Of a DNA stretch of 40,688 nt, positions 4,987 to 30,688 are shown piece after piece. The notes under the pieces were generated by a model, which had not been told where the DNA came from, ran no database searches, and saw only the letters and a program-made list of their open reading frames with translations. The position numbers were made by a program, and so were the translations under genes. Source of the DNA: Alphaproteobacteria bacterium (GTDB taxonomy: Bacteria; Pseudomonadota; Alphaproteobacteria; RF32; CAG-239); the NCBI GenBank assembly GCA_017471705.1, contig JAFUSH010000032.1:1-40688 (forward strand). Reading direction: 5' to 3'. The first letter of the stretch is position 1. Every line of letters begins with the position of its first letter.

Positions 4987-6378
4987 TTATTTACCGTTTA
5001 AAATGGCATTGAACAATTCGTGTATGCTCGGAATATGATTATTGGCATACAGAGGGTCTGTCGCAAAACGATACACATTGTGTCCGGCAAATGCCAGATT
5101 GTTTTGGATATCTCCGCCGTGTCCTATATCCATCAAAGTATGGTGGATGCAATATGTACGCGGATCAGGCAGCTTGCCGGTGGTACCGTTGGCACGTGAC
5201 CATCCTGAAAATTGACACTGTGACAAACAGCCGACACATTCTGCGCGTTGTATTTGAATGTTGGTCCATTCGTCAGGGGTTAAGAACACTAAAGTTTCAT
5301 CAGGAGTTTCTTTTATCATAGAATATCCTAAATGACGTTGCTGCTCAACGTGTTGTTTATCTTCCGATCGAATATATACCGCTTTAATCGGAGAAACAGG
5401 TAATAAAAACGTCATTTCTTCGGTAGCGGTTTCGCTATACGGAATTTCAGCCTTTTTACGGCGAATCAAATTGCTTAAAAAGTTATTTTTAATAGCCGAA
5501 GAGAAAAATCCGGTAGGACTGAATTTTTGCAAAATAACGTCGCCTTTTTGGGCGTGCATCATCAGCATTTTCCAAGCATCGCTTATAGGACTTTCTTTGG
5601 TAATCATCGGACGTGTACCGAATTGGAATGCCACCTGTCCGAGTTCCGGATTATCTATATAATCCTGCCAGTCGCTTAAGCTCCACACGCCGCCGGCAAT
5701 AATAATCGGTAAGTTCGGCAATCCGAGTTCAGTCAGAACTTTACGCAGCTCAATCAAACGTTCATAAGGTCTTTCCGGTTGTAACGGATTTTCGGCATTT
5801 GATAATCCGTTATGTCCGCCTGCCAGCCAAGGGTCCTCATAAACTACACCGCCCAAGTATTGTGCATAATTGCGAAAAGAGCGTTTCCATAAAATTTTCA
5901 TAGCTCTGGCCGAAGATATAATCGGATAATAATATACATTGTGTTCTGCCGCTATGGCTCCCAAATTATAAGGTAAACCGGCTCCGCAGGTTACGCCGTG
6001 AATGAGTCCTTTGGCCCCTTCCAATACTCTGATGATTACTTCTTCCGAATCGGCCATTTCCCACAACATATTAATGTGTATACGTCCGTTGTTTCCTGCA
6101 ATATCGTGAGCAATTTGAGCTTGCGATATACCTCCTCTGATAGCATATTCAACCATTTCGCGATGTCTTTTGGCGCGAATTTTTTCGTGGAATATTTCAG
6201 GTATGATTGTTCCGGAAAGAGAAATTTCGGTCGGACTTACCATAGAAATTGTTCCGACCCCGCCTTCTTTAGCCCAGTACCCCGAACTTTTTCCGTCGGT
6301 TCCGTTAATTCCTTTACCGCCTTCTATTAAAGGATATACCTCTGCTCCGGATATGTTTATTTTGTTAATTGTTTTCAT
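4987..6378 (-). CDS. Nitronate monooxygenase / PfaD-like FMN oxidoreductase with C-terminal Cys motif
   Basis: A 463-residue protein of the nitronate monooxygenase / 2-nitropropane dioxygenase-like TIM-barrel flavoprotein group (also including PfaD-type enoyl reductases). Visible barrel landmarks are VTCGAGLPYNL, the Gly-rich DPWLAGGHNGLSN, IIIAGGVWS and QVAFQFGTRP, the phosphate-binding regions for FMN. It is longer than simple nitronate monooxygenases (about 320-360 residues). The extra C-terminal part holds C381-x2-C384-x3-C388 and C410, which could bind a metal or cluster. There is no fatty-acid or polyketide synthase gene nearby, so a PfaD role is not supported. TGAGG precedes the ATG. 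The true substrate is unknown. Confidence 0.75.
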   Translation of the reverse strand: MKTINKINISGAEVYPLIEGGKGINGTDGKSSGYWAKEGGVGTISMVSPTEISLSGTIIPEIFHEKIRAKRHREMVEYAIRGGISQAQIAHDIAGNNGRIHINMLWEMADSEEVIIRVLEGAKGLIHGVTCGAGLPYNLGAIAAEHNVYYYPIISSARAMKILWKRSFRNYAQYLGGVVYEDPWLAGGHNGLSNAENPLQPERPYERLIELRKVLTELGLPNLPIIIAGGVWSLSDWQDYIDNPELGQVAFQFGTRPMITKESPISDAWKMLMMHAQKGDVILQKFSPTGFFSSAIKNNFLSNLIRRKKAEIPYSETATEEMTFLLPVSPIKAVYIRSEDKQHVEQQRHLGYSMIKETPDETLVFLTPDEWTNIQIQRAECVGCLSQCQFSGWSRANGTTGKLPDPRTYCIHHTLMDIGHGGDIQNNLAFAGHNVYRFATDPLYANNHIPSIHELFNAILNGK

Positions 6379-6488: not shown

Positions 6489-7958
6489 TTAATCAGCTAA
6501 ATCGAACCATTCAAAGGGTATGCCGTTAAGCCTTAGAAAAGCTATAAACAGGCAGATGTAGGCAAAAATCCTGAGCATACTCATTATATTTTGCTGTTTT
6601 TCAATGCTGACGACAGATAAAATGATTTTGAGCAATTTGTTGATACCAGCTATGCCGGCGGCAATGAGAAAAAATTGTGCGAAAATACCAGCATTGAGAA
6701 TTTCGTTTTTGAAGATTCCGGCTAATTTATATAAAAAGGTGAAAAACACCAAGTATGATGCAAGTATGACATAAGAAAGATAATTTTTCAGATGATTGCG
6801 TTGTTCTTTTTTTTGCTGTTTTTTGCTCAAATCTTCATTTTGCAGTTTTTCGATATTTACACCGCGTACGGTTTGCGGTTTTTCCTGTTGTTTTTTATAG
6901 CTGTCAAGCTGAAGTTTAAGTTTTTCTTCAATCATACATAAACCGCAACCTTTGGGGGTAAAATATATATGATTGCGATTTTTTTTGCATTGTTTGCCGT
7001 GTCCAATCAGATAATCCAGATGTTGCTGCCATTCCAGAGCGCTCGGACGTTCACTGCCTTTATTGAATGCCCGTTCAAATAAATTCATAGTGGATTTGTC
7101 AAAATAATCGTGAATGCTGTAAGGATGCGGAGCCTGATAGCTGTCAGGCCAAATACCGTAGGCATAATGATATTCCGAAATACGTTCTTGAATAGAGAGC
7201 ATATTATCGTTTTTACGCGGGCTTCCCGAAAACGGATGGATACCTTCATTTAATAATTTGAAAATGATGACAGCCAAAGCAAATTTATCTTGTTCTTCTC
7301 CCATTTCCTGACAAGTTTGTTTCATACCTTCAGGATAAATATATTCTTCGCTGACAAATTCGGCGGGATAACGCGCATCATTATCTCCTTTAATGGAAAA
7401 TCCGTCACAATCAAACATAGCTACCAACATAGTTTTTTTGTAAATGGAAACATTGGAAGGTTTTAAATCAACAATGTAGTGTCCGCAAGCGTGCAAAGCC
7501 GCTACAACCGAGGTAAGATTGAATGCGGCGTATAATCTGTTTTTATAACTGTCGGAAATTCCCAGTTTCTGCCGCACCGCTTTTTGAATTAAATGGTCCA
7601 AAGATATCGCCCGAGATGTATCTATAAGCGGCATTAAATAACCGACGCAGAATCCCTGTTCATCTTCAAGCAGGGCTGTCGGCCAAGCTATTTGAATATA
7701 TTCAATATTATTATGAATGCGTGACGGAATATCCGGACGGTTATGAAGCATCGCCTGAAGTTTTTTACGATTGGTGTCGCTGTGTTCTTTTTGGTGAAAA
7801 ATCTTTGCGACACTGTCCGGATGGGTAATATCTTCATAAATACTTCCGGCGGCGCCCCCTTTGTTAATCAGTTTTCCCAAAGTGACTTTTTCATTATGAC
7901 CGTCGGCGTATAAAGCCAAATAAGTTTTGTTTTCTCCACTCATTGCAGTTTTATCCAT
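6489..7958 (-). CDS. Membrane-anchored protein kinase of a TerY-P triad
   Basis: A 489-residue protein with an N-terminal Ser/Thr-type kinase fold. A Gly-rich loop lies near G34-G38, an ATP-binding Lys in VAKIF (K52), the catalytic loop is YIVDLKPSN (D164, N169), and FDCDG (D183/D185) stands in for DFG. It is followed by a small zinc-binding knuckle C324-x5-H330-x7-C338-x2-C341, a charged linker (345-395) and three hydrophobic segments (about 396-412, 424-440, 463-478). This matches kinases found with a PP2C and a VWA protein in TerY-P phosphorylation triads. It overlaps the end of the PP2C gene by 19 bases. An alternative ATG at 7943 (residue 6) would give the common 4-base ATGA overlap and may be the true start. 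Targets are unknown. Confidence 0.85.
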   Translation of the reverse strand: MDKTAMSGENKTYLALYADGHNEKVTLGKLINKGGAAGSIYEDITHPDSVAKIFHQKEHSDTNRKKLQAMLHNRPDIPSRIHNNIEYIQIAWPTALLEDEQGFCVGYLMPLIDTSRAISLDHLIQKAVRQKLGISDSYKNRLYAAFNLTSVVAALHACGHYIVDLKPSNVSIYKKTMLVAMFDCDGFSIKGDNDARYPAEFVSEEYIYPEGMKQTCQEMGEEQDKFALAVIIFKLLNEGIHPFSGSPRKNDNMLSIQERISEYHYAYGIWPDSYQAPHPYSIHDYFDKSTMNLFERAFNKGSERPSALEWQQHLDYLIGHGKQCKKNRNHIYFTPKGCGLCMIEEKLKLQLDSYKKQQEKPQTVRGVNIEKLQNEDLSKKQQKKEQRNHLKNYLSYVILASYLVFFTFLYKLAGIFKNEILNAGIFAQFFLIAAGIAGINKLLKIILSVVSIEKQQNIMSMLRIFAYICLFIAFLRLNGIPFEWFDLAD

Positions 7959-8686
7959 AATATTGTTTTATCATCGGGATTAATGCGTTGCGCTTTATTG
8001 TCATCTAAAGTATTATGCAAAGCGGTAATGGCTTTTTTCTTATTTTTTTCGTTATCAAGATATTCGGCTATCGGAATTAAAAAATTTTGGCGTATCTTGG
8101 AATAGTCTTCGGCAAAAACAAAGCCTGTAACGCCGTCGGTCATCAAAACGATTCTGTTTGCGTTGTTATAAGAAGTAAAACGCAAAGATGATTTCCAATC
8201 AGACATAGTATAAAAGTAAGTTTCGCAAGCATAAGCACCGTTTTCAGGTTCCGAAATTATGAAATTCTCATAATTATTTTGTGAAAAGGCAATACCTGCA
8301 CCGTCTCCGATATGAAAAAAAATACCTTGCCCTTTACAATAAAAAGTTCCGATAACGGTAGCCGAAAAATTAATAAGTTCACTCTCTGATTTACTGCGAT
8401 TGAAACGATGAAAAATCAGTTTTTGACGAGCAGTATCAACGGCTCGTATAATATCTTTTTTTATATTTTTAATATTTGAGTTAATCAAAATGTCACACAA
8501 TGTCTCACAAATTATTTTTGCTCCGATTTTACCGTATTTCGCCGAACCGGCTCCGTCTGAAACGGTTGCTACTATTTTGTTGTCCGAACATTTGGTGCAA
8601 TAATAATCCTGACAAGGTATATTTTTTGCTCTATGCAAAGCGCCGCGTACGGAAGTTGCTATGATATGGTGGCATTTTTGTGTCAT
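7940..8686 (-). CDS. PP2C-family protein phosphatase of the triad
   Basis: A 248-residue cytoplasmic PP2C (PPM) phosphatase, expected to remove phosphate from Ser/Thr residues modified by the adjacent kinase. The metal-binding pattern is visible: CQD (D27), VSDGAGS (D44), GDGAG (D128) and MTDGVTG (D184). It is compact, with no membrane segment, as in TerY-P triads. It starts 3 bases after the VWA stop and overlaps the kinase start, so the three genes form one translationally coupled unit. Confidence 0.9.
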   Translation of the reverse strand: MTQKCHHIIATSVRGALHRAKNIPCQDYYCTKCSDNKIVATVSDGAGSAKYGKIGAKIICETLCDILINSNIKNIKKDIIRAVDTARQKLIFHRFNRSKSESELINFSATVIGTFYCKGQGIFFHIGDGAGIAFSQNNYENFIISEPENGAYACETYFYTMSDWKSSLRFTSYNNANRIVLMTDGVTGFVFAEDYSKIRQNFLIPIAEYLDNEKNKKKAITALHNTLDDNKAQRINPDDKTILWIKLQ

Positions 8687-8689
8687 TGA

Positions 8690-9373
8690 CTATTTCTCAT
8701 TCCAATCGGTTATATCATCCATATAGTTATCTGCGTTTGGCGCGGCTTTAGATATGCAAGAAACACTGCGGCTGAGCCAGAGGAAAAATTCCGTAAATTT
8801 CAGACCTGTTAATCTTTTGGGCGGAAGCATAGAAAACTTTGCCAATTTATCCAAATTAGCTTCCTGAGTTCCGATGGCGTGAATAACAGCTTTTTTGTTC
8901 TTTTGAGCATAGCGACAAATTTCGGCGGCTTCTTCCCAACCGTAGTCGGTAGGCTCTCCGTCACTGATTAAAAATATCCACGGTCTTTTGGATGTAATAC
9001 CGCAACTGTCATATAAACATTTTTGTTCCTCTATTTTTTTTAACGCTGTTTCCATTGCCTTGCCGAGAGGTGTTAAACCGCCGGCTTCCATCACCGGAGC
9101 CGTAAAATTCATAGCATCTGTCCAATCGGATTCTATTTTTACTTCATCTTTGCCGAAAGCCTTAATAATAAGCAATTGCACGCGTGAACTGGCATCAATA
9201 TCGTCTTTTAATTCTTTTTCCAAAGAAACCAAACCTGCGTTTAATTGCTTAATCGGTTCGCCGCGCATCGAACCCGAACAATCCAATACCAAAACACAAG
9301 GAGTACGCTCGTTGGCATTATCGGCAAATTCTACATATGGTATGCGCTCGGAAGTATTTTTATTGCTGTCCAT
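8690..9373 (-). CDS. VWA-domain protein, TerY-like
   Basis: A 227-residue cytoplasmic von Willebrand factor A protein. A complete MIDAS metal site is visible: D31-x-S33-x-S35 (VLDCSGSM), T101 (GGLTP) and D138 (LISDGEPTD). Size, order and partners match TerY of the tellurite/stress-associated Ter systems, where VWA, PP2C and kinase genes occur together. GGGGGA precedes the start, which lies 12 bases after the stop of the small lipoprotein gene. The role in binding or scaffolding phosphorylated partners is inference. Confidence 0.9.
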   Translation of the reverse strand: MDSNKNTSERIPYVEFADNANERTPCVLVLDCSGSMRGEPIKQLNAGLVSLEKELKDDIDASSRVQLLIIKAFGKDEVKIESDWTDAMNFTAPVMEAGGLTPLGKAMETALKKIEEQKCLYDSCGITSKRPWIFLISDGEPTDYGWEEAAEICRYAQKNKKAVIHAIGTQEANLDKLAKFSMLPPKRLTGLKFTEFFLWLSRSVSCISKAAPNADNYMDDITDWNEK

Positions 9374-12943: not shown

Positions 12944-13840
12944 TTACTGATTATCACCGTCCATCGGCGACTGTTCTTTAGATTGTTCTAGCATAATAAA
13001 ACGCTTACTGTCAAATCTTCTTTTATCATAAGTCCCACGTAATTGCGCGATTTTTGCTTCCAAATCGTTATTTTTAGAAGGTAACACCGCATTTGAAGAA
13101 GGAATATTAATGAAGTCCGAAGTAGTTATTTGGGTAGCGGAAATTTCTTTACGCAGCTGTAATAACATCAATCTCTTCAGCCAGTTAGCGTAATTAAAAT
13201 CATCACCTAAATCTTCATCGTCTTCGTGGTCAATATCTAAGCTTTCTCGCTCACGCGGGCTGAAATTATAGTCATATCCCAGATTTTGCAGAGATTTCAA
13301 CATTTTATAAATCGGACGCGCCTGTTCAAATTCTTCTCGGCTGACTTCCACTTCGATTTCATTGCGAGTATAGTTTTCAACCAAATCTTGAAATTCTCTG
13401 AGACGAATAATATTAAGCTTTAATTCGTGAAGAGTTTCCGAATTAAATTCTCCGCAGGCTTGTCTAAGCGCATAAGCCGTGAACAAATCAAATTCGTTGC
13501 GGGCGGCATCTTCAAGAAAAGTTCGGCGCTCTGCAGCATCTTCCGTAGTTATGTAACCGTCATTCATATGCTTAATGATATCGGCGACTTTTTCAATCGT
13601 ACGCTCAAAAGTTTCTTGCGGAGAGCCTGATATACAAAGACCTATAAGCGCGCGGGCAATTAAATCCATCATTTGCTTTTTGTTGTAAGAGGTATCCTCA
13701 AATTCAACGGTATAATCGTCGGGAGCTAAAATAACTTCGCGTAAAATGGTGCGTGCGTTCTCTCGGTCAACCTGCGGAAAACTGTTACCCACGGCATCGT
13801 ACAGAGTGCTGAAATATGTGCAGTTTTCGTAACGCCCCAT
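12944..13840 (-). CDS. Unrecognised acidic 298-residue protein coupled to a TerB-like gene
   Basis: I do not recognise this family. The 298-residue product has no signal peptide or membrane segment. It is mainly helical, with a strongly acidic stretch at 202-214 (DIDHEDDEDLGDD) and a charged, probably disordered C-terminus from about 240. Its ATG overlaps the stop of the TerB-like gene by one base (TAATG), with GAGG upstream, so the two proteins are likely made in fixed ratio and may act together. It could be a lineage-specific protein. Confidence 0.75.
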   Translation of the reverse strand: MGRYENCTYFSTLYDAVGNSFPQVDRENARTILREVILAPDDYTVEFEDTSYNKKQMMDLIARALIGLCISGSPQETFERTIEKVADIIKHMNDGYITTEDAAERRTFLEDAARNEFDLFTAYALRQACGEFNSETLHELKLNIIRLREFQDLVENYTRNEIEVEVSREEFEQARPIYKMLKSLQNLGYDYNFSPRERESLDIDHEDDEDLGDDFNYANWLKRLMLLQLRKEISATQITTSDFINIPSSNAVLPSKNNDLEAKIAQLRGTYDKRRFDSKRFIMLEQSKEQSPMDGDNQ

Positions 13841-14277
13841 TATTTTTCCTCAAAAATATATTTAGCCTGTTCAAGCCATATAATACGGTCTATAATCCAA
13901 TTGCTGATTTGCTCTATTTTCTCCATTTCAATCCCGAGAGCAATTCCCACTTTTCCGATAAACAGAGTTTCTTCGTCCGAAAGCAAATTGTCGACGTGTG
14001 ACAACATACACATTTCTTTAATAAGTTCCAGTGCCAAGTGACGATTTTTTATGATTTTTACTTCTTGCAACAGCTCATCTTCATTGTTCTCAATAAACAA
14101 ATCATCTATATTTTTAACACCGTGAATTTCGGCAGCTTCTTTTATGAATTTCACTTCCGCTTCATCGGTATGACCGTCAGAAGCGGAGAGGTGAACCAGA
14201 ATTTTAAAGAAAATGTTTTTTTCTTCTGAAGTTGCCTTGCCCAAATATGACGGCACTATATTGTTTATATCGGACAT
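13840..14277 (-). CDS. TerB-like (tellurite-resistance TerB family) protein
   Basis: A 145-residue all-helical cytoplasmic protein. The paired acidic motifs SASDGHTDEAE (30-40) and LSHVDNLLSDEE (92-103) are the duplicated metal-binding signature of the TerB/DjlA-N family. AAGGAG lies upstream and a promoter candidate is at 14308-14336, so this is the likely first gene of the run down to the DedA gene. TerB proteins are membrane-proximal, metal-linked stress components. No TerC, TerD or TerE is nearby, so a tellurite phenotype cannot be inferred. Confidence 0.8.
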   Translation of the reverse strand: MSDINNIVPSYLGKATSEEKNIFFKILVHLSASDGHTDEAEVKFIKEAAEIHGVKNIDDLFIENNEDELLQEVKIIKNRHLALELIKEMCMLSHVDNLLSDEETLFIGKVGIALGIEMEKIEQISNWIIDRIIWLEQAKYIFEEK

Positions 14278-14367: not shown

Positions 14368-15000
14368 TTATTTTTTATCTTTGCTGTTGCAATAGTCATA
14401 AATAGGGCATTTATCACATAACGGACGTTGAGCTTTGCAAATATAGCGTCCGAACAATACCAGCCAGTGATTAGTGTTGACAATCATATTATCGGGGAGA
14501 ACTTTTACCAAATCTTGTTCAATTTCCAAAGGCGTTTTTCCGCGGCTGAAATCCAAGCGGCGGGCAATTCTCATAACGTGCGTATCAACGGCTAAAGTCG
14601 GTTGATGACACCATACGTTCATAACCACATTTGCGGTTTTGTGTCCCACCCCCGGTAAGGTAGTTAAAATATCGCGGTCAATCGGAACTTCGCCGCCAAA
14701 ATTTTCAACCAATTGCCGGCTTAAGGCAATAATGTTTTTGGCTTTGGTATTGAAAAGCCCGATGGTCTTTATATATTTTTTTAAGTTTTCCTCACCTAAA
14801 TCCAGCATTTTTTGCGCATTGTCGGCAATTTTGAAGAGTTCGGAAGTAGCTTTATTAACCCCTTTATCGGTGCTTTGCGCGGAAAGAACCACTGCAACCA
14901 ACAATGTGTACGGATTATGAAAATTAAGCTCGCTTTGCGGATGCGGATTTTGCCGAGCGAAAATATTCATAATTTCCAAAATTTCTGATTTTTTACGCAT
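14368..15000 (-). CDS. nth: Endonuclease III (DNA glycosylase/AP lyase)
   Basis: A 210-residue base-excision repair enzyme removing oxidised pyrimidines. The helix-hairpin-helix LPGVGHKTANVV holds the catalytic Lys K121, and VDTHVMRIARRL holds the catalytic Asp D139. The C-terminal [4Fe-4S] loop is intact: C188-x6-C195-x2-C198-x5-C204. Its ATG overlaps the tsaD stop codon (TGATG), so the two are co-translated. Confidence 0.97.
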   Translation of the reverse strand: MRKKSEILEIMNIFARQNPHPQSELNFHNPYTLLVAVVLSAQSTDKGVNKATSELFKIADNAQKMLDLGEENLKKYIKTIGLFNTKAKNIIALSRQLVENFGGEVPIDRDILTTLPGVGHKTANVVMNVWCHQPTLAVDTHVMRIARRLDFSRGKTPLEIEQDLVKVLPDNMIVNTNHWLVLFGRYICKAQRPLCDKCPIYDYCNSKDKK

Positions 15001-16076
15001 CAGGCTTTAACTCCTCCGGCTCCCGGAGCTTTAGGCGCGTCTTCATCAAGCGGCCAACGAGGTCTCGGTTTGAAATCAAGCGGACTTGTGTATCCCAATC
15101 TGAAACGTTCCAATCCTGCCCAAGCCACCATAACGCCGTTGTCGGTGCAAAAACGAATCGGCGGAGCGGCAAATTCCAAATCATTATCATCAGCTAAATT
15201 TTTCAGGGCACTTCTTAAATAAGTATTTGAGGCAACGCCGCCGGAAACAACCAAATGCTGACCGTCAGGATATTTTTGCTTAAAATATTTAATGGCTTTT
15301 TCCAGCTTGCGAAGCAAACAATCGGTAGCTGTCATCTGAAAACAGGCACAAATATCGGCAACATCTTGTTTAGGTAAAATGGCGTGCTCGACGATGCCGT
15401 CGGGAGAATAAGATTCTATAATTTTACGCACGGCGGTTTTCAAGCCGGAGAAAGAAAGATTACAGTCCCCCGAACCGATTAACGGCCGCGGTAAAGAAAA
15501 GCGAGCATCATCTCCGACGGCGGCTAATTTTTCTATCATCGGTCCGCCCGGATAGCCTAATCCGAGCATTTTTGCCACTTTATCAAATGCTTCGCCGGCA
15601 GCATCATCAATGGTAGTTCCCAAGCGTTCATAGTCTCCTACATTTCTGACTACTAAAATTTGGCAATGCCCGCCGGAAACCAGCAAAAGCAGATAAGGAA
15701 ACTCAATATCGTGAGCAATACGGGCGCAAAGAGCGTGACCTTCCAGATGATTTACGGCAATAAAAGGTTTGTTCTGCGCCAAAGCTAATGCCTTGGCGGT
15801 CATAACCCCGACTACAACTCCGCCGATTAATCCCGGACCGGCGGAAGCGGCAATGGCATCGACATCTTTAAGCTCAATATGAGCGCGTTGCAGACAGGCG
15901 GAAACAATTTCATCAACGTGTTCCAAGTGTGCTCTTGCCGCAATTTCCGGCACAACTCCGCCGTATTGTTTATGCTCTTCCTGTGATTGCAGAGCTTCGC
16001 CCATAATTTCTTTCATATCGGTAACGACTGCGGCTCCGGTATCATCACAACTGCTCTCTATTCCCAAAACAATCAT
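15000..16076 (-). CDS. tsaD: TsaD, tRNA N6-threonylcarbamoyltransferase catalytic subunit
   Basis: A 358-residue ASKHA-fold protein that, with TsaB and TsaE, transfers threonylcarbamoyl to A37 of ANN-decoding tRNAs. Visible motifs are GIESSCDDTGAAVV at the N-terminus, the metal-binding NHLEGH, the phosphate loop LLLVSGGH, GYPGGPMIE and VVSGGVASN. I start at the ATG at 16076; the TTG one codon earlier is unlikely. GGGAA lies upstream. The neighbour on the other strand is the mic60-like gene, an arrangement known from Alphaproteobacteria. The C-terminus carries a short Pro/Gly/Ala-rich tail. Confidence 0.97.
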   Translation of the reverse strand: MIVLGIESSCDDTGAAVVTDMKEIMGEALQSQEEHKQYGGVVPEIAARAHLEHVDEIVSACLQRAHIELKDVDAIAASAGPGLIGGVVVGVMTAKALALAQNKPFIAVNHLEGHALCARIAHDIEFPYLLLLVSGGHCQILVVRNVGDYERLGTTIDDAAGEAFDKVAKMLGLGYPGGPMIEKLAAVGDDARFSLPRPLIGSGDCNLSFSGLKTAVRKIIESYSPDGIVEHAILPKQDVADICACFQMTATDCLLRKLEKAIKYFKQKYPDGQHLVVSGGVASNTYLRSALKNLADDNDLEFAAPPIRFCTDNGVMVAWAGLERFRLGYTSPLDFKPRPRWPLDEDAPKAPGAGGVKA

Positions 16077-16102
16077 CAATTTTCCCGAAATATTTTTTAT
16101 TC

Positions 16103-16130: not shown

Positions 16131-16176
16131 TATATGAATTATGTTAGCGTCAATTGTCAAGAAAAAGGATAAAAAA

Positions 16177-17193
16177 ATGGCTAAAAAAGATAAATCAAAT
16201 GAAGTTAATGAACTTGTTGAAACGGAATCTTCCGAAAAAACAGGAGAAAAAGAGCAGATTAAAGCTAAGAAAAAAAATCATTTCGGACGTAATTTTGCAG
16301 TATTTATTTTTCTGGTGTTAGCCGGAATAGCCGCTTTTTTGGCGATTCAATTGAAACAAACAGAAGCAAGTAATCAACGCGCATTGCAGGATCTGCAAAA
16401 AGCATATGAACATAAGTTGAGCGTGATATCTTCCAGATTAAATGATTTGCAAAATGAAGTAGAGCAAATAAAAAATAAACCTTCGGCTGTTGCCGTCGAA
16501 GGGGTAAGCGAAGCGTTTGTAGAACAGAAATTGGCGCAATTAAAGCAGGAAATTGTACAATATATTCCGCACGAAAATTCCGAAGTTATACAAGCAAATC
16601 CGATTGTTGCCGAAAACACTCCGGCGAAGCAAACGCAAGAAGTTTTGCTTGCCAGCGGTGCATTGATTGTACGTGATTTGGCAGAGCAGGGAAATAAATT
16701 TGAATATGAGGCGGAAGTTTTACAAATTTTGGCTCAGGGAAATCCGCAGGCAATGAAATACGTTGAAGTTATGCAAAAGTATGCGGTTTCCGGCATAACG
16801 GGAAAAAGCAGACTGATTAAATCTTTCGATAAAATATTTGCCGATTTGAATACGGCAAAAGTTAAGGAAGAACAAAAAACGGTTGCCGAAAGCCCGCAGA
16901 ATTGGCAAGATAAAATTTTAGTATGGGCTAAAAAATTATTTGTTTCCAGAAAAGGACGCAAACGTCCGGTGTTCAATCAGGTTAATGATGAGGTTTATAC
17001 TCTGGTTCACGAAGGAAATTTAGGAGAGGCGTTAAATGAGCTTAAAACCAGCGAAAAATATTCTTCGGTATCCTCCTTCCCTTTAACACAATGGCAGATT
17101 AAGGTTGCCGATTATTTACAATTTGAACACGCGGTTAACGGACTTATTATGAACTCTTTAGCTAATTTACACTTAAAAGAAATGGAACATTAA
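16177..17193 (+). CDS. Mic60/mitofilin-like inner-membrane protein
   Basis: A 338-residue protein. The N-terminus is charged and Lys/Glu-rich, one membrane helix lies at about 39-58, a coiled coil at about 60-110, and a helical C-terminal region in which residues 150-330 end in LTQWQIKVADYLQFEHAVNGL. This architecture, together with the divergent tsaD gene, matches alphaproteobacterial Mic60 (COG4223), which shapes intracytoplasmic or outer-membrane contacts. It is shorter than typical Mic60. I choose the ATG at 16177 because AAGGA lies 7 bases before it; the frame also opens at 16141. The usual hemC/hemD/hemY neighbours are absent. An ADP-dependent kinase follows after 5 bases. Confidence 0.65.
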   Translation: MAKKDKSNEVNELVETESSEKTGEKEQIKAKKKNHFGRNFAVFIFLVLAGIAAFLAIQLKQTEASNQRALQDLQKAYEHKLSVISSRLNDLQNEVEQIKNKPSAVAVEGVSEAFVEQKLAQLKQEIVQYIPHENSEVIQANPIVAENTPAKQTQEVLLASGALIVRDLAEQGNKFEYEAEVLQILAQGNPQAMKYVEVMQKYAVSGITGKSRLIKSFDKIFADLNTAKVKEEQKTVAESPQNWQDKILVWAKKLFVSRKGRKRPVFNQVNDEVYTLVHEGNLGEALNELKTSEKYSSVSSFPLTQWQIKVADYLQFEHAVNGLIMNSLANLHLKEMEH

Positions 17194-17198
17194 AATTT

Positions 17199-18596
17199 AT
17201 GATTAATACGGTACTTAAGGAAAAATGGAATCGTTTTTATGATATGGTTCCTCAGCAACTTGAAAAAATAAAACAGGTAAAGCGCGTTGCTACGGCATTC
17301 AATACCAATATCGATGCGGTGGTGAAAATCAGCGGCGATAAAATTGCAAAACTCGCCGAATTGTGTGAAGTAACGGAAAAAAATTTGCAGGGAGTTTCGC
17401 AAATAATTTGCGGACGAGATGCAGTGAGAGGCATTATAAAATGTTTTACGCAAGGTATTGCCGAAGAATGGTTGTGCGAAGGAATCGAAACATTTAAATG
17501 GTTGCAGGATAATATCGGATATAATCGTCTGCAAATGGGCGGACAGGGTGGTATTGTTGCCAATGCAATGGCTGTTTTGAAGGTGCAAAATGTCTATGCG
17601 CATACGGCATCACATCCTAAGCTTCAGGCCGAACAATTTTTGAATTTGGACAATTTATTGGCTTCCGATGAACAGGGAAATATATGTAAGGCTTGTGAAA
17701 TCAACAGACAAAATGATGTTCCGCTTATTCATTGGATTATGGAGTTTGATGCAGGTGATGAATTTACGTTGGACGGTAAAAAATTTGTTTGTCCTAAATC
17801 GAATCGGTTTATTGCCACTTATGATCCTGCCAATATGATGCTGAAAAAAGATGAAAGTTTTTTGCAGAATCTGGATAAAACAGGTTTTGATTATATGATT
17901 TTATCGGGTTATCATAATTTAACGAGTGCAAACGGCGGAATAGAGAGAATTAAAGAAACTGTGCCGCTTATCGGAAAGTGGAAAGCTGATAATCCGAATG
18001 CGGTTATTCACTTGGAACTTGCTTCAACTCAAGATATTGAAGTCAGAAAAGCAATTGTTGAATACATAGCTCCGCTTGCAGATTCCGTAGGTCTTAATGA
18101 AAGGGAGGCTTTGGATGTTTTGGAGATTATTGATAAATCTGAATTTGAAAAAATCAAAGAAATGAAGTTAGATTCTCCGGTTTTATTTGAAGTACTGCAT
18201 AAAATTAAGGATAAATGCCGTACTTCACGAATACAGCTGCATTTCTTCGGTATGTATTTAACGATGCAGGATAAAGGATTTAAAATAGGCAAAGAACAAA
18301 ATAAACGCGGTATGATGTTGGCGGCAACCATAGCTGCCGCTAAAGCCGGCACCGGTCAAATAAATAAATATGAAAATCTTTTATGGGCACAGGGAAAGGA
18401 TGTTTCGGATATCGGGACGAATGAACTTGAAAAATTAGCTCGGTATTTGAATATTCAGGAATTGTCAACAAGCGGAGTTTGTGATTGGAATAATCTCGAA
18501 ATTATAGCTGTCCCGACAATCTTAATCGAAAAACCGTTGACATTGGTGGGAATGGGGGATACCATTTCCTCAATATCATTAGTGGGAGCATTGTAA
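17199..18596 (+). CDS. ADP-dependent sugar kinase (ADP-glucokinase/phosphofructokinase family)
   Basis: A 465-residue enzyme of the ribokinase-superfamily ADP_PFK_GK group (PF04587), which phosphorylates glucose or fructose-6-phosphate using ADP rather than ATP. Landmarks: N-x-NID (N37, D39) for sugar contact, GGQGGIVAN (114-122), LSGYHNL (235-241), HLELAS (271-276), the metal-linked N300-E-R-E303, RIQLHFFGMYLT and the catalytic G451-M-G-D454 (VGMGDTISS) near the C-terminus. Length is typical. The family is classically found in hyperthermophilic archaea and animals and is rare in bacteria. Sugar preference cannot be read. It starts 5 bases after the mic60-like stop and has no strong ribosome site, so translation may be coupled. 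Confidence 0.85.
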   Translation: MINTVLKEKWNRFYDMVPQQLEKIKQVKRVATAFNTNIDAVVKISGDKIAKLAELCEVTEKNLQGVSQIICGRDAVRGIIKCFTQGIAEEWLCEGIETFKWLQDNIGYNRLQMGGQGGIVANAMAVLKVQNVYAHTASHPKLQAEQFLNLDNLLASDEQGNICKACEINRQNDVPLIHWIMEFDAGDEFTLDGKKFVCPKSNRFIATYDPANMMLKKDESFLQNLDKTGFDYMILSGYHNLTSANGGIERIKETVPLIGKWKADNPNAVIHLELASTQDIEVRKAIVEYIAPLADSVGLNEREALDVLEIIDKSEFEKIKEMKLDSPVLFEVLHKIKDKCRTSRIQLHFFGMYLTMQDKGFKIGKEQNKRGMMLAATIAAAKAGTGQINKYENLLWAQGKDVSDIGTNELEKLARYLNIQELSTSGVCDWNNLEIIAVPTILIEKPLTLVGMGDTISSISLVGAL

Positions 18597-18701: not shown

Positions 18702-19277
18702 TTACTGTGTCTTGCTTTTCAATGACCAGTAGGCAACGGTGTTGTATATCGACGGATTAGATGTGGCATAAAACAGGGCATTTTTTCCGTAAATATTTTT
18801 GACCAGCGGATTAGCTTTTTGTTTAAGCAATGCTTTTATGATTTCAGGATAAGCGCTGAATAATGCGGCTAATATCAGAGGTGTTTCTTCCAAAATGTTT
18901 TTATCTTCCACATTGGCGCCTTTTTCGACCAAAAGGTCGATAATTTCAGGATATTTGCTGTATTTCGCCGCAAGCATTATAGGAGTATTGTCATAAGGGC
19001 AGGTTGTATTGTTATGACAACCGGTACTTCCGCATACAGTACCGCAATTTTTTGCCTCTTTTCCTGTGGCATCAGCACCTTGGTCAAGCAACTCTTTTAC
19101 TTTTTCCGGTGTAGCATCCCGCCACCATTGCGGCCAACTCGGAAAATCAGGTTTGACTTTTCCCGAAGACGGGAGGGAAGAACTGCCGACTTCTCTGCCT
19201 AAAGACAATTGGGCAGATGTCGGAAACGTCACAAAAATTATCCCGAAAGATAAAATAACAGCAAATAATTTCTTCAT
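18702..19277 (-). CDS. Secreted ankyrin-repeat protein with a four-Cys loop
   Basis: A 191-residue protein. The start is placed at the ATG at 19277, where GAGG precedes a clear signal peptide (MKKLFAVILSFGIIFV..TSAQ, cleavage near 22-23). The upstream extension to 19385 has no such features. From about residue 55 there are three to four ankyrin units with TPxxLAA-like turns (TPIMLAAKYS at 98, TPLILAALFS at 132). A loop between the first two units carries C78, C82, C87 and C93, suitable for two disulfides in an oxidising compartment. Partner unknown; it may bind a periplasmic protein. Confidence 0.8.
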   Translation of the reverse strand: MKKLFAVILSFGIIFVTFPTSAQLSLGREVGSSSLPSSGKVKPDFPSWPQWWRDATPEKVKELLDQGADATGKEAKNCGTVCGSTGCHNNTTCPYDNTPIMLAAKYSKYPEIIDLLVEKGANVEDKNILEETPLILAALFSAYPEIIKALLKQKANPLVKNIYGKNALFYATSNPSIYNTVAYWSLKSKTQ

Positions 19278-19393
19278 AAGAACCTCGCTTTGAATGATAT
19301 TCGGATATATTAAGGTTACCACGATATGTGTATAAGTCAACACTTTATGGCTGTATGAAAAATGCGCCACATTTAAGTGACGCATTAAGAATA

Positions 19394-26565: not shown

Positions 26566-26701
26566 TTCAATTGCTCCATATCAGGTTTGTTACAATTAAT
26601 ACCTCAATAAAATTAATTTGTCATCAATGTTTTTTATAATAGTTGAAAAATTTTTTAAAAAGCTGTTATATATAGATATTGTTAATGAAAGTGAGATAAT
26701 T

Positions 26702-27409
26702 ATGCTGAAAGTTAAAGAAGTTTCTAAATTATTTTCCGATAAAAAAGCGCTTGATAATGTGTCTTTTAGCGTTAAAACGGGAAAGATAGCTGCTTTGCTG
26801 GGAGAAAACGGTGCCGGAAAATCTACGCTGTTGCGGGTTTTAAGCGGATTTTTTGAAGCTGAAACCGGAGAAGTTTTTATTGATGATATAGGTATATCAG
26901 AGCGCGAAAAATATTTGAATAACGTCGGATATGTACAGGAAATTTCGGCTTTATACGGTGAAATGACCGCTTACGATTTTTTGGATTTTGTAGCTGATTT
27001 GCATAAAATACCCGAAAATGAAAAAGGCGAAAAAATAAAAAGCGTAATTAAAATGCTGGATTTGCAAGATGTTTTGACACAAAAAAACGAAACACTTTCA
27101 AAGGGATATAAAAAGAGATTGGAATTGGCGGCGGTTTTGCTTTTTTCTCCGAAAATGCTGTTGTTGGATGAACCGACCGAAGGTTTGGACCCGAATCAAA
27201 AAGAGGCATTGCGTAAAATTATAAAGCAATATGCCGAAAATCACATCATAATTATATCTACGCATACTTTGGAAGATGTTGAGGCTTTGGCAGCGCAAGT
27301 TTTATTGTTGCATAAAGGAAAACTATTGGCAGATAAAACTTTGAACGAATTTAAAAAAGAGGCTGACAATGATTTACTGGCTTCTTTCAGACAGGCTACA
27401 AAAAATTGA
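26702..27409 (+). CDS. ABC transporter ATPase, GldA-like
   Basis: A 235-residue nucleotide-binding subunit: Walker A GENGAGKS (34-41), Q-loop Q79, signature LSKGYKKR (132-139), Walker B LLLDEPTEG (153-161; D156, E157) and switch His H188 in STH. I start at 26702, where the N-terminal strand begins (MLKVKEVSKLF), not at the frame opening at 26618. It is followed 8 bases later by a permease-GldG fusion and then DUF4340, the arrangement of Gld-type exporters. Confidence 0.92.
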   Translation: MLKVKEVSKLFSDKKALDNVSFSVKTGKIAALLGENGAGKSTLLRVLSGFFEAETGEVFIDDIGISEREKYLNNVGYVQEISALYGEMTAYDFLDFVADLHKIPENEKGEKIKSVIKMLDLQDVLTQKNETLSKGYKKRLELAAVLLFSPKMLLLDEPTEGLDPNQKEALRKIIKQYAENHIIIISTHTLEDVEALAAQVLLLHKGKLLADKTLNEFKKEADNDLLASFRQATKN

Positions 27410-27417
27410 GGTGAAAA

Positions 27418-29739
27418 ATGCAACAATTCTTTGCTCTATTTAAAAAAGAAATGAACGGATATTTTAAGAGTTATTTCGCTTTTATGATTTTCTTTATATA
27501 TCTGTTTGTATCTATAGGTTGCGCTTTCTATTTCGGGGCATATTTGGCAATGCACGATGCATCGGTCTATGCATTGTTTTATTTGCAACCGGTCATATTG
27601 GCGCTTTTAATTCCGGCATTGACAATGCGTTTATGGTCTGATGAGTATAAATCCGGCACGGCTGAATTTTTGCTTACTCAACCGCTTAAGAATCGATTGC
27701 CGGTGCTGGCAAAATTTGCCGCAGCCGGAGTATTTGCCGTTGCAATGAGCTTATTTTTGCTGCCGTTTATTATGTATACGGCAACTTGGTTGAAAATTGA
27801 TTGGAATAATATTTTATGCAGCTATGCAGGGATATGGCTTTATATTTTGCTGTTTTGTTCTTTAGGATGCTTTATCTCGTCGCTGAGCAAATATACGATT
27901 ATTTCATATCTGCTGACGGTTTTTATAAGCGCTCTATGGTTGTTGTTACCTTTAAGCAAATTGTATGATGTATATAATAACTTTTTATTTGCCGAAGTGG
28001 GAATATCCGACTTTTTGTATTTTGTAATATCGACGGCGGCGTTGTTATGGCTTAATGTTTTGGTTTTGGACTACAGACGTTCAGCGCAAAAAAATAAAAA
28101 TTTACGTTTCGGAATTTTTGCGTCGCTGTTTGTTGTCGGAGTGGTGCTTTTGAACAGCGCTTTGTTGATATTGTTTGATGCGCATAAAACGGATTTTACC
28201 AGTGACGGTCAATATACTTTACAGCCTAAAACGCGTCAAATCGTAAGTTCGGTGGTAAAACCGATTACTTTGGATGTTTATATTGCCAAAGATTTAAAAG
28301 CTAAAAATGCCGAATATTACTATTACTACCAACAAACAAAGCGGTTCATTGAAAAATACGGTAAAGAATCGGCTTCTATGATAAGTGTAAACGTTACGGA
28401 AACGGAGCCTTTTTCCGAATTGGAAAAGAACGTAATAAACAGCGGATTGTACTATGAAGAAAATGCCAAAGGCACCAAAGATTATTTCGGTGCGGTTATC
28501 CGAGATAATGAAGGGCAGGGTTTGGTTATTAAGCAATTTTTGCCGCAAAGGCGTGCTTTCTTGGAAAAAGATATAGATAAAGCTCTGCTTAAATTGACGC
28601 AAAAGGAAGTTATAAAATCAATAGGCATATACTTCGATCCGTTGCAGAATTTGGGTGAATTTAACGCTTTTACCCTTAATTTGGAAGAAGATTACAACAT
28701 CTTGAATGTTACCGATGATACTTATGAAATTTCATCAAAATTAGATTTATTGATTTTAGTCAATCCGAAAGAAATGCCGCTTTCGTTTTTGTACGCAATC
28801 GATCAATATATAGCCAACGGCGGCAAAGTCTTGATATTCTTCGATTTATTAACCAATGGGCAATCGGAAAATACAAATATGAAGACATTGCAGGTAGTTG
28901 CATTCTTAGATCAGATGAATGTTTTATTGGGTGAAGATTTTACTGATGAAGGTACTGCTGCCGGCAATTATAAAGTGTCGGAGCAAAAATTAAAATTGTA
29001 TAAAGCTTTGACTTTCACCGCAACCGACAGTGAATTTGAGATTACTCCGGTTATTGAAAATACAAAAGGTTTTATCGGTGCTGTTCTGCGCGGACAGTAT
29101 AAGTCAGTCTTTGAAACAAATCCGCACCAATCGAAAGAAATTTTGAGTAGTATGATGCCTCATACCATTTACAGTTCGGAAACCGCTACCGTGGCGTTTG
29201 TAGGTGATGCTGATATTATCGAAAACGAAACTTGGGTGGCAGACGGTTCGCCGGATACCAATCCGTACAGTGTGATTAATAAGTCGGCGAATATGCTGTT
29301 GTTGCGCAAATTAATTGATGAGCTTGCCGGTAACGATATATATAATGAATTGCCGCAGAAAAATGACTATGAAAGCTTATTCGGTATAGGAGAGCAAGTG
29401 AATGCCGAAATTTTCGGTCAGTACTATGAAGAATACGGTTCCATTTTGGAAGATATGAAAATGGCACAGCTGAAATTATTGCAAAAAAGCGGTGGCGATG
29501 AGCAGAAACTGCAAACTATGATGCAACTTGATGAAGCAGGATTGGCTCTCGGGCAAGCCGAACAAAAAATGGAAAATTTATTCTATCAAATCAGACGGCA
29601 ATATTCGTCTGAGATAAATGAGGTTATAGCCATAAATGTTTTTGCGATACCGGTCTTGTCCACGATATTTTTATGGTTGGCGGCATTGCTGGTCGGCAGA
29701 TACAGACTGAAAAAAATTAAGGAGCTTAGTAATGAATAA
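27418..29739 (+). CDS. ABC-2 permease fused to a GldG-like extracytoplasmic domain
   Basis: A 773-residue fusion. Residues 1-255 are an ABC-2-type permease with about six membrane helices (e.g. LFKKEMNGYFKSY at the start, then RLWSDEYKSGTAEFLLTQP, the permease motif). A seventh helix follows near 235-255. Residues 260-700 form a GldG-type (ABC_transp_aux) soluble domain, with LDLLILVNPKEMP and GKVLIFFD, closed by a C-terminal membrane helix (about 737-757). In Bacteroidetes these are separate gldF and gldG genes of the gliding/secretion-linked ABC system; here they are one polypeptide. Substrate unknown. The stop overlaps the DUF4340 start by 8 bases. Confidence 0.87.
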   Translation: MQQFFALFKKEMNGYFKSYFAFMIFFIYLFVSIGCAFYFGAYLAMHDASVYALFYLQPVILALLIPALTMRLWSDEYKSGTAEFLLTQPLKNRLPVLAKFAAAGVFAVAMSLFLLPFIMYTATWLKIDWNNILCSYAGIWLYILLFCSLGCFISSLSKYTIISYLLTVFISALWLLLPLSKLYDVYNNFLFAEVGISDFLYFVISTAALLWLNVLVLDYRRSAQKNKNLRFGIFASLFVVGVVLLNSALLILFDAHKTDFTSDGQYTLQPKTRQIVSSVVKPITLDVYIAKDLKAKNAEYYYYYQQTKRFIEKYGKESASMISVNVTETEPFSELEKNVINSGLYYEENAKGTKDYFGAVIRDNEGQGLVIKQFLPQRRAFLEKDIDKALLKLTQKEVIKSIGIYFDPLQNLGEFNAFTLNLEEDYNILNVTDDTYEISSKLDLLILVNPKEMPLSFLYAIDQYIANGGKVLIFFDLLTNGQSENTNMKTLQVVAFLDQMNVLLGEDFTDEGTAAGNYKVSEQKLKLYKALTFTATDSEFEITPVIENTKGFIGAVLRGQYKSVFETNPHQSKEILSSMMPHTIYSSETATVAFVGDADIIENETWVADGSPDTNPYSVINKSANMLLLRKLIDELAGNDIYNELPQKNDYESLFGIGEQVNAEIFGQYYEEYGSILEDMKMAQLKLLQKSGGDEQKLQTMMQLDEAGLALGQAEQKMENLFYQIRRQYSSEINEVIAINVFAIPVLSTIFLWLAALLVGRYRLKKIKELSNE

Positions 29740-30688
29740 AAAATATATTTTAGGCGGTATTTTATTTGTTTTAACGGCTCTGGTAATTTTAGCCGGAGTA
29801 TGGTTTTATTCTCGCTACAAACAAGAGGCTAATGTCAGAGGAAAATATACTTTTTCAGCCACTAAGGATAAAATAAATTACTTGGGAAACATTAAAATGA
29901 TTACGGCAAACGGCGGCGAATTTAATATTCATCGCTTGCCTGACGGAAGTTGGCGTTTTAAGGAAGCCAAGGACTATTACGTTAATGAAGAAATGCTCGC
30001 CTCTTTTTTAAGTATGGTGAAAAATTCGGTTATTGTTTCGGTGTTACCGGTAAATGATACATTTTTACAACAAAATAACTTGACTGAAGAAAACGGTATT
30101 GAAATTAAAACGTATGATTATGACGGCAAATTACTTGATGACATTATATTGGGAAAATGGATACCTGAACAGCAATTGGTAATGATTAAGGACGGTAAAA
30201 ACGAGCATTATGCGTATGCGGCGAGCGCTGCAAACGTTTTTTCCGGAATGCCTCAGGATTGGATACCGTACCCGTTGTTAAATATTAAAACATCGGAAAT
30301 TAAATCGGTAATAATTAATGATAAGAAGAAAGATTATAAAGAATTCAACAGGTTGCTGGCGCATTCTTCGGCTTGGCGTGAGTTGGTCAGAGTTTTGAAT
30401 TTTATGGAATACCAAGGATTAACCTATAAATCTGATTTGGCTGATTTGCCTCCGGATGTTAAAGTGCGGCAGATTGATGTTTTGCTGTTGACGGGAATGT
30501 TTTATAAGTTAACGGTGTTGAATGTGGATAACGCATATTGGGTTTTAATTTCAATGGATGCACAAAAAGTATTTGCAAAAGAAGCGATAAATGTTGCGGC
30601 GAATACTTATCGTTTTTATGCAGACTGGGTTTTTCAATTAATGGAACAGCAGGGTAAGGTTTTATTTAATGAAGAATTGATTAATTAA
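29732..30688 (+). CDS. DUF4340-domain protein, third gene of the Gld-type operon
   Basis: A 318-residue protein with an N-terminal signal/anchor (7-25), then two similar beta-rich domains with HRLPDGSWRFKE (about 70-81) and ILGKWIPEQQ, characteristic of DUF4340, which accompanies GldG-fusion ABC transporters. It is probably periplasmic and membrane-tethered. Its ATG lies inside the end of the permease gene (AATGAATAA). Confidence 0.82.
   Translation: MNKKYILGGILFVLTALVILAGVWFYSRYKQEANVRGKYTFSATKDKINYLGNIKMITANGGEFNIHRLPDGSWRFKEAKDYYVNEEMLASFLSMVKNSVIVSVLPVNDTFLQQNNLTEENGIEIKTYDYDGKLLDDIILGKWIPEQQLVMIKDGKNEHYAYAASAANVFSGMPQDWIPYPLLNIKTSEIKSVIINDKKKDYKEFNRLLAHSSAWRELVRVLNFMEYQGLTYKSDLADLPPDVKVRQIDVLLLTGMFYKLTVLNVDNAYWVLISMDAQKVFAKEAINVAANTYRFYADWVFQLMEQQGKVLFNEELIN

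Follow-up and report, generated by a model that had tools for sequence, protein, structure and literature searches.

Glycolysis driven by ADP is regarded as an archaeal trait. In Thermococcus kodakarensis, PEP synthase recycles the AMP formed in ADP-dependent glycolysis (PMC8100219), and a 2025 review lists ADP-glucokinase (ADP-GK) for the Archaea and, for bacteria, only the ADP-using phosphofructokinase (PFK) of the PFK-A type (PMC12965863). The presence of the ADP-dependent kinase family in bacteria has already been noted, and alanine scanning of one of its members, AncMsPFK, has assigned K179, N181 and R212 to fructose-6-phosphate (F6P) binding; conservation of these three residues is confined to the PFK and bifunctional enzymes and that of E90 to the GK and bifunctional ones, and the Thermococcus litoralis GK has a His at position 181 (PMC7948494). 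The PFK-A enzymes that use ADP, including those of cyanobacteria and Azospirillum brasilense, are defined by the donor signature GGDGSxxI, as opposed to GGDGSxxG in ATP enzymes and GG(D/E)D in PPi enzymes (Shen et al. 2024, PMC11609450). Our literature searches returned no bacterial ADP-GK in the group described below, no biochemistry of a bacterial PF04587 protein and, as far as they went, no description of ADP-GK combined with ADP-PFK-A.

The locus considered here lies in the window, by which we mean the whole stretch of DNA analyzed (40,688 nt; contig JAFUSH010000032.1 of GCA_017471705.1; Alphaproteobacteria; RF32; CAG-239). A first interpretation of the letters, the sequence-only reading, had presumed an alphaproteobacterial source, which the nearest loci show to be correct. 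One open reading frame, running from ATG to TAA, encodes a 465-aa protein that is a full-length member of PF04587 (Pfam ADP_PFK_GK; 244 bits, cut-off 27, E 3e-72, profile positions 1-429 of 430), with the family motifs NxNxD, GG, HxE, (N/D)xxE and GxGD all aligned and conserved. Its AlphaFold2 model, made from 27 related sequences (pLDDT 92.6, pTM 0.90), matches the ribokinase-like fold with lid of the family; the top 22 entries in a PDB fold search are all ADP-dependent sugar kinases, and the highest TM-score, 0.87, is to the T. litoralis ADP-GK 4b8s. Profile search, motifs and fold thus confirm the ADP_PFK_GK assignment of the sequence-only reading, and ADP is the predicted phosphate donor. 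The gene and its motifs are given below, with counts over 83 sequences, namely the window kinase and a non-redundant set of its bacterial relatives, and with the residue numbering of PMC7948494 mapped on the 6c8z chain, where 13/13 looked-up residues gave the right letter.

17199..18596, + strand: ADP-dependent sugar kinase, predicted ADP-glucokinase (full PF04587 profile, specificity residues, tree, AlphaFold2 model and fold search)
17301..17315, + strand: sugar-site motif N35-T-N37-I-D39, aligned to AncMsPFK N32/N34/D36, of which N32 and D36 have been probed by mutation (PMC7948494)
17466..17468, + strand: Glu90, glucose-site glutamate (E90 in AncMsPFK, Ala in the Pyrococcus PFK), Glu in 82/82 sequences that have the column
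17535..17555, + strand: M-G-G-Q-G-G-I motif, residues 113-119 (GGQGG, 114-118), by motif and alignment
17724..17732, + strand: Leu176-Ile177-His178, replacing the Lys-x-Asn of ADP-PFKs and equal to the 'LIH' of T. litoralis ADP-GK (His in 83/83, Lys in 0/83)
17805..17825, + strand: catalytic Arg203 (AncMsPFK R206) and Asp209 (replacing ADP-PFK R212), both in 83/83
18009..18107, + strand: stretch with the Mg/nucleotide motifs H271-x-E273 (HLE) and N300-x-x-E303 (NERE), by alignment, with motif roles from PMC7948494
18549..18569, + strand: catalytic G-M-G-D454-T-I-S motif, D454 in 83/83

As read from these columns, the specificity pattern of the window kinase and its relatives is of the T. litoralis glucokinase type. 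Alongside Glu at AncMsPFK position 90, they carry His at 181 (His178 in the window), Asp at 212 (Asp209) and no Lys at 179 (Leu176), which is the combination of the ADP-GK subgroup (Glu90, no Lys179, His181, no Arg212), and the F6P-binding Lys/Asn/Arg of ADP-PFKs have become Leu176/His178/Asp209. Position 310, the N of N-x-x-E, is Asn in 83/83 sequences, like T. litoralis GK. One glucose contact, Gln244, is His in 75/83; the remaining contacts from PMC7948494 (D36, E90, G114, G115, Q116, D471 and the His at 181) are kept or GK-type. The window kinase is probably an ADP-dependent glucokinase, converting ADP and D-glucose to AMP and glucose-6-phosphate, and residues and tree both favor glucose over F6P, between which the sequence-only reading had not chosen. 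It would work like an ADP-GK yet stand outside the named NCBIfam ADP-GK equivalogs, because it scores below the cut-offs of NF010642 (201.0/387 bits) and NF010641 (175/554).

In a search covering Glk, PTS-EIIC, ROK and PfkB, the ADP kinase appears to be the only clear glucokinase candidate. No Glk scored above cut-off in 13 genus genomes and PTS-EIIC was found in 0/20; the PEP-utiliser matches in the source genome are a pyruvate phosphate dikinase (PPDK) and an N-terminally extended enzyme I, in design nearest the nitrogen-PTS type, and the single PfkB protein resembles a ribokinase/adenosine-kinase-type enzyme. Each genus genome also has one ROK gene, encoding about 266 aa (source copy G000:C39, L141:3007-3807), and this protein could phosphorylate glucose, leaving the ADP kinase as a side enzyme or low-energy backup. 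Its nearest PDB match is the ROK glucokinase 3vgk, and some relatives, in genus g18, do manage without PF04587. We nevertheless regard this as unlikely: the protein scores weakly, its best subfamily, N-acetylmannosamine kinase, lies well under cut-off, and both the ExGH motif usual in the sugar site of ROK proteins and the zinc motif CxCGxxGC are absent in 10/10 congeners read. The short ROK protein adjoins a large protein of 920 aa.

Overall similarity leaves the substrate undecided, because the nearest solved relative is an ADP-PFK and the NCBIfam models are nearly tied. The top phmmer match of the window kinase in the PDB is AncMsPFK (1.5e-60), and TIGR02045 (ADP-PFK) is marginally the best NCBIfam model at 204.5 bits of a 408.1 cut-off, the ADP-PFK and ADP-GK models falling within 4 bits of each other and all under cut-off. 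These scores would suit an ADP-dependent PFK or a bifunctional PFK/GK acting on F6P, as would Glu90, which is common also to bifunctional enzymes, and the five kinase-bearing genomes without a detected PFK-A. We consider such an activity quite unlikely, given the loss of the three F6P-binding residues (with the same His and Asp in all relatives), the PFK-A already present in most genomes, and the tree. In the version containing three archaeal ADP-GKs, these and the bacterial clade (100/100) fall together opposite the PFK/bifunctional enzymes (99/98, a bootstrap that is not fully settled), and forcing the clade onto AncMsPFK is rejected (15.6 log units worse, p-AU 0.023); an earlier tree, built with a single GK, divided in the same way and carried a warning of long branches.

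Turning back to the predicted glucokinase, the His that replaces the glucose-contacting Gln244 makes another hexose a possible substrate. A drift in bacteria from glucose to some other sugar or a nucleoside-type substrate, still phosphorylated with ADP, would also be in keeping with the long stem branch of the clade and with a neighborhood without sugar genes. It is, in our view, decidedly improbable: all other glucose contacts are preserved or GK-type, Gln244 itself is kept in the Ignavibacteriota relatives, and the genus has no other clear glucokinase among the Glk, PTS-EIIC and ROK proteins examined.

The sequence-only reading held the family to be rare in bacteria, and of genomes sampled evenly across the class 4/289 have a PF04587 kinase. 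It is present in 21/22 genomes of the source genus and in 49/66 sampled genomes of the order, representing 15/15 sampled genera, with losses concentrated in genus g18. The relatives are uncultured Alphaproteobacteria of rumen and gut, among them 'Azospirillum sp. CAG:239'; beyond the order, a Rhodospirillales MAG (SZUA-500) carries the gene, as do Ignavibacteriota (L106, L107). The site is conserved as well: in 77/80 database loci the kinase gene follows members of a cluster made up of a divergent tsaD, a mic60-like gene and a HemY-like gene, and the three loci that depart from this all come from beyond the order, where the Ignavibacteriota and SZUA-500 genes have unrelated neighbors (methylmalonyl-CoA mutase genes, a ZnuA-type zinc transporter). 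The window has two genes of this cluster.

15000..16079, - strand: tsaD, divergent, marking the conserved site (TIGR03723, 411.6 bits; synteny)
16141..17193, + strand: 'mic60-like' gene, encoding by appearance a membrane-anchored coiled-coil protein, co-directional and 5 bp upstream of the kinase (anatomy and position)

That the kinase reached this single assembly as contamination or by a recent stray transfer, a reading to which the rarity of the family in the class might lend weight, is already refuted by this conservation and synteny and has virtually no chance of being right, the more so as the base composition of the gene (0.38, against 0.39 for the window) is like that of its neighbors and the genome is 100% complete with 0.66% contamination.

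Several relatives stand out. Near-complete genomes of genus g18, in the same family (G069, G314, G317, G319 and others), mostly lack PF04587 and keep PFK-A. A contig labelled Lactobacillaceae (L079, JAISVX010000001.1) has the alphaproteobacterial order nth-tsaD-mic60-kinase and branches inside the clade, and is likely a mislabelled MAG. In L086 (JAFTNB010000100.1), the kinase frame is in two pieces, through gene decay or a frameshift in assembly.

The gene directly upstream had been called mic60-like; its adjacency, anatomy and position stand, but the label lacks the support of the Mitofilin profile, which gave no match up to E = 1. A homolog lies directly or one gene upstream of the kinase in 75/80 loci, and a HemY-like TPR gene separates the two in 29 loci. 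Direct adjacency depends on the absence of the HemY-like gene and so tells nothing about metabolism, and we reject a functional link of the kinase to the mic60-like gene, the more so as we saw no sugar genes in the conserved neighborhood. The pta-ackA genes noted nearby are real, but lie 12 kb off and outside the conserved site, and a functional link to them is likewise rejected.

Other genes of the window include a row encoding vWA, PP2C phosphatase and Ser/Thr kinase-like proteins (6489-9373, - strand), resembling a TerY-phosphorylation-type triad, accompanied by a nitronate monooxygenase-like gene (4987-6378), and a TerB-like gene (13840-14277). An ankyrin-repeat protein is encoded directly downstream of the kinase (18702-19385, - strand, convergent), outside the conserved neighborhood. 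The ABC transporter genes at 26618-30688 (+ strand) are weakly of the GldF/GldG auxiliary type, under cut-off, in an alphaproteobacterium.

To judge from its position in a tree without mouse ADPGK, the bacterial kinase clade is likely of archaeal origin, with too long a stem for that origin to be dated or located. Horizontal acquisition, one of the two explanations offered in the sequence-only reading, is plausible for the clade as a whole, with its long stem beside the archaeal ADP-GKs, and would be old; a recent import is not, because the gene spans the order and occupies a constant position. Plasmid mobility is rejected, relatives being carried by only four haloarchaeal plasmids at 24-27% identity.

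The only PFK-A of the source genome (G000:C56, L145:3327-4406) has the donor motif GGDGSMNI, which disfavors an ATP- or PPi-dependent PFK. GGDGSxxI is found in 35/36 PFKs read across the order, including those of genomes without the ADP kinase, so that the kinase and the PFK-A motif are separable traits. In a small tree, PFKs of the order join a single cyanobacterial PFK (100/99) away from Escherichia coli PfkA, a grouping to be read with the long cyanobacterial row in mind and in a tree that included no characterized ADP-PFK-A. The motif alone is no proof of ADP use, because the PFK of Ilyobacter, outside the clade, has GGDGSQKI and the PFK-A of L215 (G334) has GGDGSMGV on a longer branch, the latter a possible change of donor. 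The PFK-A of the order is predicted to belong to the ADP-using class, and its fold is unrelated to that of the window kinase. Five near-complete genomes with the ADP kinase (G017, G340, G354, G355, G360) have no detected PFK, from assembly gaps or a different route. Pgi is present in 20/20 genus genomes. The source genome encodes a PPDK (TIGR01828, 1352 bits), and PPDK-sized matches occur in most sampled genus genomes; pyruvate kinase is also present (17/20 genomes), so PPDK need not run glycolytically.

From the family, residues, gene set and conservation described above, we propose an ADP-driven entry to glycolysis in which donor, substrate, flux and the AMP cycle are predictions. The window kinase, with its ribokinase-type fold, would use Asp454 as catalytic base, Arg203 on the phosphates and Glu90 and His178 on glucose, and would be the main glucose-phosphorylating enzyme of the cell; its glucose-6-phosphate would pass through Pgi to the PFK-A of the ADP-using class. 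At each of the two investment steps ADP would be spent and AMP left over; adenylate kinase would recharge the AMP, or PPDK would do so if PPi is at hand (AMP + PPi + PEP -> ATP + Pi + pyruvate), with PPi coming from biosynthesis and pyruvate kinase competing. The use of ADP brings no saving by itself, since each AMP returned to ADP costs adenylate kinase one ATP; a gain in energy would arise only if the dikinase recharges AMP, as PPDK could here. The low-ATP glycolytic strategy suggested in the sequence-only reading draws support from the ADP-type PFK-A and PPDK and none from pta-ackA. That these parts form a complete ADP-driven Embden-Meyerhof entry, in which ADP-GK and ADP-PFK-A make AMP and PPDK recharges it, a counterpart of the Pyrococcus pathway from different parts, is a tentative proposal, to which we would give slightly less than an even chance. 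If true, bacteria of an order from animal guts would begin glycolysis by using ADP for each of the two kinase reactions, catalyzed by unrelated enzymes, and would offer a mesophilic, non-archaeal system for asking what purpose ADP-dependent glycolysis serves. The nearest automatic labels would then mislead at both steps, pointing to a phosphofructokinase for the window glucokinase and to an ATP enzyme for its partner PFK.

Among known systems, the window kinase stands as a new branch, in bacteria, of a family already known. It shares fold, catalytic motifs and the specificity residues E/H/D/N with the archaeal ADP-GKs (T. litoralis 1gc5/4b8s, Pyrococcus furiosus 1ua4, P. horikoshii 5o0j) and falls on their side of the tree, but is about 27-28% identical to them in fold alignments, has His for the Gln244 contact across most of its clade, comes from a mesophilic gut bacterium and occupies a separate long branch. 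The Methanosarcinales ADP-PFK (AncMsPFK, 6c8z/6xio) is of the same family and gives the top pairwise sequence score, yet its F6P-binding residues are absent from the window kinase and a joint grouping is rejected. Animal ADPGK (mouse 5ccf/5ck7) has the same family and fold at 55.6 bits and TM 0.65, far under the archaeal enzymes and too distant to be the source. The ADP-PFK-A of cyanobacteria and A. brasilense is a different protein from the window kinase; it shares its signature with the PFK of the order, for which identity to the Acaryochloris PFK is 38%, just below the 40% within-class figure of PMC11609450. On paper, the proposed pathway is like that of Thermococcus and Pyrococcus, where ADP-GK and ADP-PFK yield AMP and a PEP dikinase returns it to ATP (PMC8100219), whereas in these gut bacteria the PFK comes from an unrelated family, the dikinase is the PPi-using PPDK, and pyruvate kinase is encoded as well.
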